Part shown: positions 14,752 to 41,120 of the stretch, piece after piece
Position numbering within the stretch: the stretch's first letter is position 1
Layout: each line of letters opens with the position of its first letter
Origin: a virus
DNA: 43,195 nt
Virus record (IMG/VR): IMGVR_UViG_3300020438_000078
Location: 1 to 43,195 of that record
Strand: one strand, 5' to 3'
Notes under the pieces: model-generated
What the model was told of the DNA's origin: nothing
Databases searched by the model: none
Seen by the model: only the letters and a program-made list of their open reading frames with translations
Position numbers and translations under genes: made by a program

Positions 14752-14780
14752 ATTATATCAAAAAATGAAGCTCTTGTCAA
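14752..14780 (-). promoter_or_regulatory. Sigma70-type promoter, minus strand
   Basis: On the minus strand TTGACA (14780-14775), a 17-bp spacer and TATAAT (14757-14752). It is preceded by AAATAGTTC, part of the A-rich upstream block shared by the other promoters in this genome. It directs transcription toward the SSB and SbcCD-like genes. Confidence 0.85.
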
Positions 14781-21786: not shown

Positions 21787-22074
21787 CTATTTACCTATAT
21801 CCTCTATGTTATCTTTACTTATAACTTGATAAGCACCTTTATTATATGCAGGTGCAATAGTATACTCAGAAGAAGCCTCTACTTTCCAGTCTTGGCTAGG
21901 CTGGGGCTTATAAGGGGTAAGAGGAGCTGACGGATAGTCAGGCGTCTCTCGTATAACAGGCTTATCATTAGCATGAAGCTGCATATACTGTACCTTACGC
22001 TTATTTTGATATAATGATTGATTATTTTTCTTTCTACCACTAGCTGCGTATCTCATACTGCCGTTTATAATCAT
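21787..22074 (-). CDS. Unknown phage protein, 95 aa, first gene after a promoter
   Basis: A 95-residue product with a GGAGG site before its ATG; it is the first gene read from the promoter at 22098-22126. It starts MIINGSMRYAASGRKKNNQS, is Pro/Tyr-rich in the middle (TPDYPSAPLTPYKPQPSQDW) and has no hydrophobic segment. No family is recognised. It leads the operon of primase, polymerase and Fe-S genes. Confidence 0.7.
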   Translation of the reverse strand: MIINGSMRYAASGRKKNNQSLYQNKRKVQYMQLHANDKPVIRETPDYPSAPLTPYKPQPSQDWKVEASSEYTIAPAYNKGAYQVISKDNIEDIGK

Positions 22075-38279: not shown

Positions 38280-38308
38280 ATTATCTCACGAATCGACACA
38301 TATGTCAA
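38280..38308 (-). promoter_or_regulatory. Sigma70-type promoter, TCGTGA spacer class
   Basis: TTGACA (38308-38303), 17-bp spacer ending ATTCGTGA, GATAAT (38285-38280), preceded by AAAATAATTC. It lies directly after the terminator of the ncRNA unit. Confidence 0.88.
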
Positions 38309-38334
38309 GAATTATTTTCACTTACCCATAAAAA

Positions 38335-38364
38335 AACCGCCACTCGATTGCTCAAATGGCGGTT
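38335..38364 (-). terminator. Strong intrinsic terminator of an RNA unit
   Basis: AACCGCCA (38335-38342)/TGGCGGTT (38357-38364), an 8-bp GC-rich stem. On the minus strand TTTTTTT follows at once. An outer pair ACCCATAAAAAA (38324-38335)/TTTTTTATGGGT (38377-38388) encloses it and could form an alternative fold. Confidence 0.92.
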
Positions 38365-38594
38365 CCAGCTTTCTGCTTTTTTATGGGTGTGCCTACATTA
38401 TGTCGCGGCAGAAGGATGAAACAGAACTCTAAAACTCAAAACCTTCTAGCTGTCCGAGCAAGCCAACTCCTAATCGCCTTTAATTCCGTCCGATTAGTGA
38501 CGTAATGAGGGCTTCAGACAAGAAAGTTATTTACTGATATCTTTACTGCCTTATCCTAAGGGGTGTATAGGTCTCTGGCTTCCCTCATTTATTA
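38335..38594 (-). ncRNA. Probable orphan small RNA of about 260 nt
   Basis: A consensus promoter (38601-38630) is followed about 260 nt later by a strong terminator (38335-38364), with no open frame longer than a few codons between them. The RNA would contain a closing helix AATGAGGG (38504-38511)/CCCTCATT (38582-38589), a hairpin CTAATCG (38470-38476)/CGATTAG (38491-38497) and a small hairpin CCTTA-tcc-TAAGG (38549-38561). No match to tRNA, tmRNA, 6S or another family is recognised by eye. Confidence 0.75.
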
Positions 38595-38600
38595 AAACAT

Positions 38601-38630
38601 ATTATCTCACGAAATTAGCACTTATGTCAA
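38601..38630 (-). promoter_or_regulatory. Sigma70-type promoter of the ncRNA unit
   Basis: TTGACA (38630-38625), 18-bp spacer ending TTTCGTGA, GATAAT (38606-38601), preceded by AAAATAATTC. Confidence 0.9.
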
Positions 38631-38650: not shown

Positions 38651-38995
38651 CTATATATTTTTATGCCACTTATCTATTATCCAGTAACTAACTCCCTCTC
38701 TGCTATGAGGGTTAGCTACTTCCATTCTTTTACGGCTCCAGCACCCACAACAGTCGAAATCGTGTGTACAATAGTTTCTCATGTCAAAGTGTAATCCTAG
38801 CTGTGCCACTATAGAGTCACGGGTTATGTTCAGTTTATTACTACTAACGTGAAGGTGGTACATATTATACATTTCTTCGCCTAGCTCATCCTGCATATCC
38901 ATAAAACCGATAGACACACGGGCATCTATTGCTTTAGCTAGATTTGCTACTTCCCACCCATACGTTTCTCTAATTTGACTAAATTCCCAAAGCAT
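38651..38995 (-). CDS. Unknown phage protein, 114 aa
   Basis: A 114-residue product starting MLWEFSQIRETYGWEVANLA, with MYNMYHLHVSSNKLNITRDS and a Cys/His cluster near the end (YCTHDFDCCGCWSRKR) that could bind a metal. No named family. It precedes the ncRNA unit and follows a hairpin at 39013-39047. Confidence 0.65.
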   Translation of the reverse strand: MLWEFSQIRETYGWEVANLAKAIDARVSIGFMDMQDELGEEMYNMYHLHVSSNKLNITRDSIVAQLGLHFDMRNYCTHDFDCCGCWSRKRMEVANPHSREGVSYWIIDKWHKNI

Positions 38996-39012
38996 ATTTT
39001 CTCCTGTTTTCT

Positions 39013-39047
39013 ACCACGAAAGGGGACATAAAGTCCCCTAAGGTGGT
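39013..39047 (-). terminator. Intergenic hairpin after an HTH gene
   Basis: Inner stem AGGGGAC (39021-39027)/GTCCCCT (39033-39039), outer ACCAC (39013-39017)/GTGGT (39043-39047). On the minus strand it is followed by AGAAAAC rather than a U-run, so it may be an attenuator or an RNA-stabilising hairpin. Confidence 0.55.
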
Positions 39048-39058
39048 CAATCTCTCGA

Positions 39059-39376
39059 CTAGGAAATAGCTTCTAAAAGAGTTTCCAAGTCACCAAAGCC
39101 AGCCTTGTTTAGGCTTACGAACTCAACCTTAAGCTCGGCTTCGATCTGTGCTACCAAATCAGCTTTTCTCACCTGAGGTGGACGCTTGGTAGGCTTAGCT
39201 TGGGCAATGTATACACCCAGAGCTGAGAGCTTAGCAATAACACTTCGCTCAGTTTTGCTGAACTCAGATGCTAACTCATTAACAGTAGCACGAGTAGGGG
39301 TGGCTTCGTAGCGTGAAACCATGTTGTCAATAACTTCCTGAGGATAGTTAGAGCTTTTGTTTGCAGTCATAGTCAT
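39059..39376 (-). CDS. Small HTH-type DNA-binding paralogue
   Basis: A 105-residue protein from ATG 39376 (GGGAGAG about nine bases upstream). Another in-frame ATG at 39427 lies 6 nt after the -10 and could start a leaderless message. The HTH is in VNELASEFSKTERSVIAKLS, then ALGVYIAQ. The C-terminal domain is RKADLVAQIEAELKVEFVSL, ending LETLLEAIS. It is closely similar in plan to 37401 and 42345. Confidence 0.75.
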   Translation of the reverse strand: MTMTANKSSNYPQEVIDNMVSRYEATPTRATVNELASEFSKTERSVIAKLSALGVYIAQAKPTKRPPQVRKADLVAQIEAELKVEFVSLNKAGFGDLETLLEAIS

Positions 39377-39433
39377 AGTGTTTTCTCTCCCGAAAAATAA
39401 TTTATTTAATGTTGCTCTCAATTTCATAATACT

Positions 39434-39862: not shown

Positions 39863-40035
39863 TTGTTTATCCTTTTCACTAACCATGCAAAATCATCCCA
39901 GTTAGCCTCGGCAGTACCTTTAGCAATATCATCTTGTATTACTATTTTTACTAAGGCCAACGCTTCCACAGATGTTAGTCCGTCTTGCATCATACCTCCG
40001 TGCATTAAAAGTAACTCAAATTGATTTTCTGTCAT
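39859..40035 (-). CDS. Small unknown phage protein, 58 aa
   Basis: A 58-residue frame with a very strong GGAGGGAT site three bases before ATG 40035. The product MTENQFELLLMHGGMMQDGL continues with SVEALALVKIVIQDDIAKG. It is helical and acidic. It is the first gene of the promoter at 40060-40088 and ends with ATGA overlap to the zincin. Function unknown. Confidence 0.7.
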   Translation of the reverse strand: MTENQFELLLMHGGMMQDGLTSVEALALVKIVIQDDIAKGTAEANWDDFAWLVKRINK

Positions 40036-40059
40036 GGTATCCCTCCGATTTATTTCATA

Positions 40060-40088
40060 ATTATACAGGCAATTACATCCGTTGTCAA
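40060..40088 (-). promoter_or_regulatory. Sigma70-type promoter, minus strand
   Basis: TTGACA (40088-40083), 17-bp spacer, TATAAT (40065-40060). It is followed by a normal leader with GGAGGGAT. Confidence 0.88.
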
Positions 40089-40260
40089 ATGTTTTTGCCC
40101 CTAATCGTGAAAAAAACGCAAGGGAATTCCGGGGGGCCGCGCGCGGGGTCGTGATGTCAAGAACTTTTTGCTCAATTTCCCCAAATTTTCGTTAATTTAC
40201 TACCCCGTTCCGCAGACTTCCGCAATTATAAACAATTTGCACCAAACGTGCAAAAAAGAC

Positions 40261-40289
40261 TTGACACGCGACCCCGTTGCGGGTATACT
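40261..40289 (+). promoter_or_regulatory. Plus-strand promoter 1 in the 40106-40504 gene-free stretch
   Basis: TTGACA (40261-40266), 17-bp spacer, TATACT (40284-40289). It is preceded by GTGCAAAAAAGAC and followed by GGCGC. The 40106-40504 stretch has no convincing gene; it holds this repeat pair and a GC-rich patch at 40130-40150 (GGGGGGCCGCGCGCGGGG). Confidence 0.75.
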
Positions 40290-40383
40290 GGCGCCGGGCC
40301 GCTTCTCGATTTTTCACTTAGCTTTTGCACTGGCGCAGACTTGCCACTTTGGAAAAAATTTGGTGCACACCCGCAAAAAAGAC

Positions 40384-40412
40384 TTGACATTGCTCGCTTT
40401 TGCACTTATACT
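40384..40412 (+). promoter_or_regulatory. Plus-strand promoter 2, repeat of promoter 1
   Basis: TTGACA (40384-40389), 17-bp spacer, TATACT (40407-40412), with the same GCAAAAAAGAC before and GGCGC after. The pair is 123 bp apart. Transcripts would run into the antisense strand of the polyphosphate kinase gene. Confidence 0.75.
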
Positions 40413-40504
40413 GGCGCAGGCAACACCAACGTTCGCTTCGTTACTCTACTACTGGCGCCCCCGCGCCGAAAATCCCGAAAAATCCAGAAATTTTTGGGCG
40501 GGCG

Positions 40505-40520
40505 TGTTTCACGTGGAACA
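40505..40520. other. Canonical chromosomal-type parS site
   Basis: TGTTTCACGTGGAACA at 40505-40520 reads TGTTCCACGTGAAACA on the other strand, the standard ParB-binding parS of bacterial chromosomes, with all 16 bases matching. It includes the TGA stop of the polyphosphate kinase gene. No ParA or ParB gene is seen in the window, so a host ParB would be the binder. Confidence 0.85.
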
Positions 40521-41120
40521 TTCCGCGAGTAGCACCTTGAGAAAATTTTCGATTCCGATTTTTTTGTCATTATAATCTATTGTGTTCCAGTCTGGCGAAA
40601 CCACGCGCTCTTTTAAAATGCTCATTCGGTCATAATGTGATAATGCGTTTTCATCATTCTCGGAAAATTTCCAATATGTTAGAGGTGAAATTTTTCTCGC
40701 CTCGATTCGCGTTCTCTGTTCCGATTCGGAAATTGAAAGCCAGAATTTAATGAATTGAACGCCACCAGCGATTTGGCCAGCTTCCCATTCAAGATGGTTA
40801 TTCAAAAAATTTTCGTATTGTTTATCAGTACACCAGCCGTTCATTTTTTGAACCATCGCCCGCGAATACCAAGAGCGGTCATAGAAAACGATTTGATTTT
40901 TTGCGGGCATTTTGGTTGCCCAAAATTTGAGCCAGCTTCGCATAACATTTTCGGATGGTTTAGTTGATGGGACAATGCTATACCATGCAGGATTTAAATA
41001 TTCAGTAATCGCCCGAATAGTCGAGGATTTTCCGGCAGTATCTCGCCCCTCTAAAATTACAGCAATGCGTTTTTCATTCGCGTCTGCAATTCGGTTAAGT
41101 TGTATTAGTAAATTTTTCAT
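40509..41120 (-). CDS. Polyphosphate kinase 2-like
   Basis: A 203-residue PPK2 starting at ATG 41120 (ATGA overlap with the upstream gene; a longer frame to 41222 is a shadow). Walker A is EGRDTAGKSSTIRAI (residues about 24-38), lid and substrate motifs include NPAWYSIVPSTKPSE, and Walker B is FYDRSWYSRA (79-86). KFWLSISESEQRTRIEAR also fits the family. PPK2 uses polyphosphate to phosphorylate nucleotides or the reverse. Its role would be energy or dNTP supply. The stop lies inside the parS site. Confidence 0.9.
   Translation of the reverse strand: MKNLLIQLNRIADANEKRIAVILEGRDTAGKSSTIRAITEYLNPAWYSIVPSTKPSENVMRSWLKFWATKMPAKNQIVFYDRSWYSRAMVQKMNGWCTDKQYENFLNNHLEWEAGQIAGGVQFIKFWLSISESEQRTRIEARKISPLTYWKFSENDENALSHYDRMSILKERVVSPDWNTIDYNDKKIGIENFLKVLLAECST

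Follow-up and report, generated by a model that had tools for sequence, protein, structure and literature searches.

What does a phage make from a stretch of its genome that holds a promoter and a terminator with no gene between them? The question arises in a 43,195-base IMG/VR virus record of marine, uncultivated origin, analysed here at its full length (the window), in which an earlier note had described a probable phage sRNA without stating its strand. All elements of this unit, the promoter, the frame-free interior and the terminator, lie on the minus strand. The DNA polymerase of the window is 43% identical to Aeromonas and Vibrio phage polymerases, and those phages we take to be T5-like. 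Judged by comparison of related sequences, the unit is very probably a noncoding RNA gene that stands on its own in a group of T5-like marine phages. The unit and its neighbours are arranged as follows.

38651 to 39427, minus strand: upstream small genes (114 aa; 122 aa)
Upstream of the promoter of the putative RNA gene: AAAATAATTC, common to other promoters of the same phage
38601 to 38630, minus strand: promoter of the putative RNA gene, with TTGACA at 38630-38625, an 18-nt spacer, GATAAT at 38606-38601 and TG before the -10
38330 to 38594, minus strand: predicted transcript of about 265 nt, its start placed 7 nt past the -10 and its end at the U-tract
38330 to 38362, minus strand: intrinsic terminator, an 11-bp hairpin at 38362-38337 with a GCAA (GNRA) loop, then U7 at 38336-38330
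38280 to 38308, minus strand: promoter of the next genes, directly past the terminator and before the start codon
37702 to 38260, minus strand: downstream small genes (62 aa, 134 aa)

The consensus promoter claimed by the earlier note is present and matches at 11 of 12 consensus positions. A 17-mer that contains its -35, AAAATAATTCTTGACAT, occurs in 11 copies in the window (at most three mismatches) against 0.46 expected, so the promoter belongs to a real phage promoter family. Copies of the element lie at 14774, 22120, 25084, 27201, 33442, 33474, 36470, 38302, 38624, 40154 and 43047. The description of the interior as holding no plausible frame was also borne out, since the ORF list of the window contains no minus-strand ORF of at least 25 aa inside the unit and stops fall in all three frames. 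The textbook terminator is likewise where it had been seen; a simple scanner missed it, probably because the stem runs into the U-tract, and a hairpin search found the 11-bp stem, the 4-nt loop and the T-run. The promoter at 38308-38280 belongs to the two genes that follow (62 and 134 aa), which have one of their own in most relatives examined too; the RNA unit is therefore separate from them. A 104-aa protein weakly matches the PHROG D5-like transcriptional regulator, and the 122-aa protein the PHROG DNA-binding protein. The folding energy of the lone unit is just mildly low (z -1.93), so the case for an RNA is one of comparison.

Relatives of the flanking genes are present in IMG/VR. INPHARED phage records gave no match by DNA (queries: the window, L052 and L070) or by protein (134-aa and 122-aa genes); genome contigs gave no relatives by protein profile, and two matches to the RNA pattern, both read as chance. 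The first clue to a conserved structure came from the window and two relatives, L009 and L013, which have short stretches in common and helices that differ in sequence yet still pair. Two IMG/VR pattern scans built on these common stretches returned 35 and 30 DNA stretches. After repeats and one coding chance match (L076) were dropped, 28 distinct copies of a domain remained, the window included, and 22 of these were aligned, six near-duplicates (L045, L052, L061, L065, L073, L075) being left out. Because most relatives were fetched by exact patterns from the window, L009 and L013, the invariance of the pattern letters is imposed and the other positions alone count; the letters left free by the patterns are H1 (except its last base), H4 (except its G-rich end) and H5, in the labels used below.

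38504 to 38589, minus strand: 5' three-way-junction domain ("type I"), 86 nt, in 34 full-length loci including the window
38582 to 38589, minus strand: 5' strand of H1, AATGAGGG, pairing with 38511-38504; two-sided changes in 6 of 8 pairs
38577 to 38579, minus strand: 5' strand of H3, GCC (GYC in relatives), pairing with 38550-38548
38555 to 38571, minus strand: H5 hairpin (CCTA...TAGG), variable in length and sequence, paired in relatives
38548 to 38550, minus strand: 3' strand of H3, GGC (GRC in relatives)
38539 to 38555, minus strand: conserved stretch GATAAGGCAGTAAAGAT, containing the H3/H4 junction and partly within the retrieval patterns
38514 to 38537, minus strand: H4 hairpin (TCAG...CTGA), with two-sided changes in 3 of 4 pairs and 100% of cells paired
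38504 to 38511, minus strand: 3' strand of H1, CCCTCATT, closing the domain with AATGAGGG

Comparison shows a predicted domain in the order H1, AA, H3 (GYC:GRC), an internal loop ANGGA/AUAA, H5, the junction AGUAAAGAU, H4, AG and H1; the AGTAAAGAT junction is conserved and unpaired in the model. Among the 22 distinct sequences, 85.8% of cells are paired and 13 of the 18 pairs show two-sided changes, with G-U states among the paired changes. The covariation score of 0.488 compares with 0.165 in shuffles (0/500) and with at most 0.124 in slid-partner controls. RNAalifold recovered the same helices unaided, and an unguided scan over all column pairs put six of the proposed pairs at the top. The variable H3 pair is CG in 14 and UA in 8 of the 22 sequences, matched pairs exclusively, though the retrieval patterns allowed a mismatch. 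The closing helix AATGAGGG/CCCTCATT that the earlier note had drawn is backed by covariation in relatives; the covariation analysis in related phages that it had proposed found conserved structure and did not refute the RNA. An extra pairing of columns 15-17 with columns 109-111 (93.9% of cells paired, the window having A-U where 21 others have G-C) may exist and is suggestive only. The copy in the window is atypical, being without the GGG and GCC letters present in most copies. The lowest-energy fold of its core is slightly off the covariation fold, by 0.7 kcal/mol, and for the whole RNA the two folds stand at -72.7 and -70.7, a gap of 2.0 kcal/mol.

A covariance model was built from 17 sequences, with the window, L009, L013, L018 and also L070, which nearly duplicates L064, excluded. 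On the 43-kb window it gave one match, at 38589-38504 on the minus strand (70.8 bits, E 8.9e-15). The model was then given 65 of 81 loci, the 16 that overlapped, were cut off or were weakly related being excluded; 34 of the 65 scored at least 44 bits, among them L042, which is cut by a contig end, and the next best scored 19.9. There was no match in L003, L012 or L024-L027. By the IMG/VR searches the domain is present on 33 phage contigs besides the window, and all phages that carry it are uncultivated contigs. Whole records, 26 in number, hold exactly one copy in 21 cases and none in five; in G021, G022 and G024-G026 the locus or its neighbours are present and the domain is absent.

Comparison also shows a conserved locus, in counts made over the window and 33 full-length loci (34 in total). 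In 28 of the 34, H1 lies 8-31 nt past the end of a promoter -10 (8-11 nt in 19), which puts the domain at the extreme 5' terminus of most predicted RNAs; six copies have no promoter directly before the domain. A hairpin with a T-run follows downstream in 33 loci, L072 being the exception, and a homolog of the 134-aa gene lies downstream in 29. The loci without this homolog are L055, L067, L068 and L072, which have less than 1 kb of DNA past the domain, and L047, which has ample DNA. The T-run lies 167 nt past the core in the window, a short distance in a range of 166-756 nt among the others, and most relatives have hundreds of nucleotides between domain and terminator. A coding reading (DKxVKIxVK, in a GATAAG frame) was tried and rejected: the spacings that separate conserved segments include every one of the three frame classes, and 18 of 27 cores (L055 excluded) have an internal stop, from which we conclude that the domain is not coding and that comparison shows no conserved frame. 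The strongly Shine-Dalgarno-like AACTATAGGAGGA is conserved in the downstream part of the RNA in L031, L034, L036, L045, L051, L052 and L058.

The remainder of the predicted RNA holds three further features.

38330 to 38503, minus strand: 3' body, 96% identical to L003/L008 despite the unrelated 5' domain there
38470 to 38497, minus strand: covarying hairpin stem A, CTAATCG/CGATTAG, with loop GACGGAATTAAAGG
38324 to 38388, minus strand: enclosing pairing of the earlier note, ACCCATAAAAAA at 38388-38377 with TTTTTTATGGGT at 38335-38324, not conserved

All seven pairs of stem A are kept in four sequences, and five of the seven are changed on both sides. In five sequences 96.4% of cells in the terminator stem are paired, with four pairs changed on both sides. 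The earlier note had suggested that a 12-bp pairing enclosing the terminator (ACCCAT.../...ATGGGT) might allow switching. The pairing itself exists in the window; of four relatives, just the closest (L003) has the ACCCAT partner, which is absent in L009, L013 and L018. Because its 3' arm runs past the U-tract, a terminated RNA would miss most of that arm, and the alternative would form in read-through RNA alone. For want of conservation and because it needs read-through RNA, the terminator switch was rejected.

L003, which shares its contig with L008, is closely related to the window and has no copy of the domain. The two promoters are identical at 53 of 57 positions and the 3' bodies at 171 of 179 (96%), with flanking DNA at about 81%, while the 5' parts align with a score of 23.5, no better than shuffled sequence (19.8, sd 5.9). 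The 5' part of L003/L008 is related to that of L012 (80% over 55 nt, E 3e-7). Since promoter and 3' body are nearly identical while the 5' domains are unrelated, the comparison shows that the predicted 5' domain can be exchanged as a cassette, with promoter and 3' body held in common. L024-L027, which the model does not match, have at the same locus a gene-poor sequence that again lies between a promoter and an end resembling a terminator. A different RNA may lie between promoter and terminator-like end in L024 (1380-1720) and L026 (3600-3900). By eye, H-type pseudoknot-like units occur on the 5' side in L003/L008, L009, L012, L013 and L018. Those of L012 (3100-3240) are three in tandem with A-rich third loops and, again by eye, are reminiscent of type III antitoxin repeats.

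The proposal of a phage sRNA is thus well supported in the sense of a noncoding RNA gene: by its predicted features the unit is an independent one, with its own promoter and terminator, compensatory, covarying structure, no conserved ORF or frame, and the same locus in many phages. Rfam holds no family that matches at gathering or relaxed thresholds, and sub-gathering matches (nematode snoRNA, snR69, mir-142, Atu_C9, ncr1575, NsiR1, His_leader) were treated as chance. ARAGORN found no tRNA and no tmRNA in the window. What we take by eye to be a resemblance of GATAAGRCAGTAAAGAT..GGTAAAAG to conserved RNase P stretches was set aside, the window RNA having no match to an RNase P family even at relaxed thresholds; a group I intron, also suggested by eye, had no model support. 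A literature search over partial journal coverage yielded nothing recognised as describing this RNA. As far as searched, in Rfam and in that literature, these sequences appear to constitute an undescribed family of structured phage noncoding RNA with exchangeable 5' domains. Some published motifs have no Rfam number; one is Ocean-VI, listed only as "marine only" (PMC2864571).

We propose that a strong sigma-70-type promoter would drive transcription, from about 38594, of some 265 nt of RNA, which would be closed within a few bases of its 5' end by the three-way junction (H1, H3+H5, H4), followed by the hairpin body and the GNRA-capped terminator. As the next genes have their own promoter, the RNA would act in trans. 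Our preferred, though tentative, reading makes the folded 5' domain a decoy or ligand of some RNA-binding protein of the host, with cassettes swapped as hosts change. The target might be an RNA-cutting defence protein or a part of the translation machinery, and the role possibly counter-defence. Three things speak for it: the compactness of a conserved junction in which many unpaired letters are kept, the exchange of 5' domains as wholes, and the known RNA mimics of phages, namely the pseudo-ToxI of PhiTE (PMC3475682) and the RNA anti-CRISPRs (PMC10651486). The RNA anti-CRISPRs (Racr) are small phage noncoding RNAs that mimic host RNA (PMC10651486); they mimic CRISPR repeats, whereas nothing CRISPR-repeat-like was recognised in the window RNA.

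Other readings account for parts of the same evidence. GOLLD and ROOL are phage-borne, heavily structured noncoding RNAs found by covariation, of unknown function and often near tRNA islands (PMC12286853). An RNA of this kind, assembling with itself into an RNA-only particle instead of binding a host protein, would likewise be phage-encoded and highly structured with its own promoter. Relatives of several hundred nucleotides (with the T-run as far as 756 nt past the core) and the copy in L047, which adjoins a tRNA gene, would suit it. We nevertheless consider it unlikely, as no Rfam family matches and the window RNA, at about 265 nt, is far below the 659 nt of ROOL and the more than 800 nt of GOLLD (PMC12286853); it differs too in adjoining small DNA-binding protein genes and in its exchangeable 5' domain. 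Somewhat less probable still is an sRNA whose exposed junction would base-pair with phage or host mRNAs and silence them. The size and promoter-terminator layout of the unit are typical of sRNAs, and the AGTAAAGAT junction is both conserved and, in the model, unpaired. The conserved part is, however, a structured domain and not a seed, and no mRNA target of the sort the earlier note had asked for was found in the window, where the exact complement ATCTTTACT occurs on the plus strand only. Besides the RNA gene it is present at 21811 and 32328, two sites that lie between or antisense to minus-strand genes.

The pseudoknot-like units of L008/L003, L009, L012 (three tandem), L013 and L018 recall an RNA resembling a type III antitoxin, or a pseudo-antitoxin, which would neutralise a host endoribonuclease toxin. 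Phage PhiTE provides a precedent, escaping ToxIN via pseudo-ToxI repeats altered by expansion and recombination, and the likeness extends to a phage noncoding RNA of units that change by recombination (PMC3475682). The window RNA has a three-way junction instead; no such pseudoknot or tandem repeat was seen in it by eye, the unit shows no tandem pseudoknot repeats beside a toxin gene, and none of seven neighbouring proteins was recognised as a member of a toxin family. The window RNA has no known toxin partner, and we hold this reading improbable. A leader or riboswitch acting in cis on the small genes downstream would explain a conserved structure followed by a terminator right before genes in conserved order, but we regard it as very unlikely: those genes have their own promoter, in most relatives examined as in the window, the alternative pairing is absent in L009, L013 and L018, and hundreds of nucleotides separate domain and terminator in most relatives. 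Least credible of all is a DNA element, such as an origin or packaging site, that merely resembles an RNA. Inverted repeats and a single copy per phage record would fit one, yet the paired changes include G-U states, and the domain lies 8-31 nt past a -10 in 28 of 34 loci with terminators after it.

A further reading, which we think doubtful, is of these RNAs as an arsenal. A fixed promoter and 3' body would carry 5' domains of unrelated structure (a three-way junction, tandem pseudoknots or other kinds) swapped between phages, and each domain would block a defence protein of its own, one that binds or cuts RNA in the host, some of the phages having their own tmRNA nearby. The list of known phage noncoding RNAs is short, and shorter still for those whose structure is backed by covariation. 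This one has no Rfam entry and is found at a single locus on many phage contigs. Its 5' domain is replaceable as a whole, with promoter and 3' body still 93-96% identical, and the same body with different domains offers natural controls for finding the partner of the domain. If it serves counter-defence, the RNA would add a class of folded RNA inhibitor to the phage toolkit.

Other RNA genes occur in the related phages. The tRNA gene of L047 (11981-12049, minus strand) lies immediately past the domain. Permuted (alphaproteobacterial-type) tmRNA genes occur as separate genes in nine of 27 phage records of the group (G003, G004, G005, G007, G013, G014, G015, G018 and G020), several of them less than 1 kb from the RNA gene, with none in the window; examples are L031 13310-13736 (plus), L034 4516-4934 (minus), L037 6575-6927 (minus) and L070 10311-10687 (plus). 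In the window, positions 40020-40600 are gene-poor and bear two similar plus-strand promoters (40261, 40384) and a minus-strand promoter with 12 of 12 consensus positions (40088). The part from 40060 to 40420 is kept in L013 at 80%, and the region is possibly a further noncoding element or an origin.
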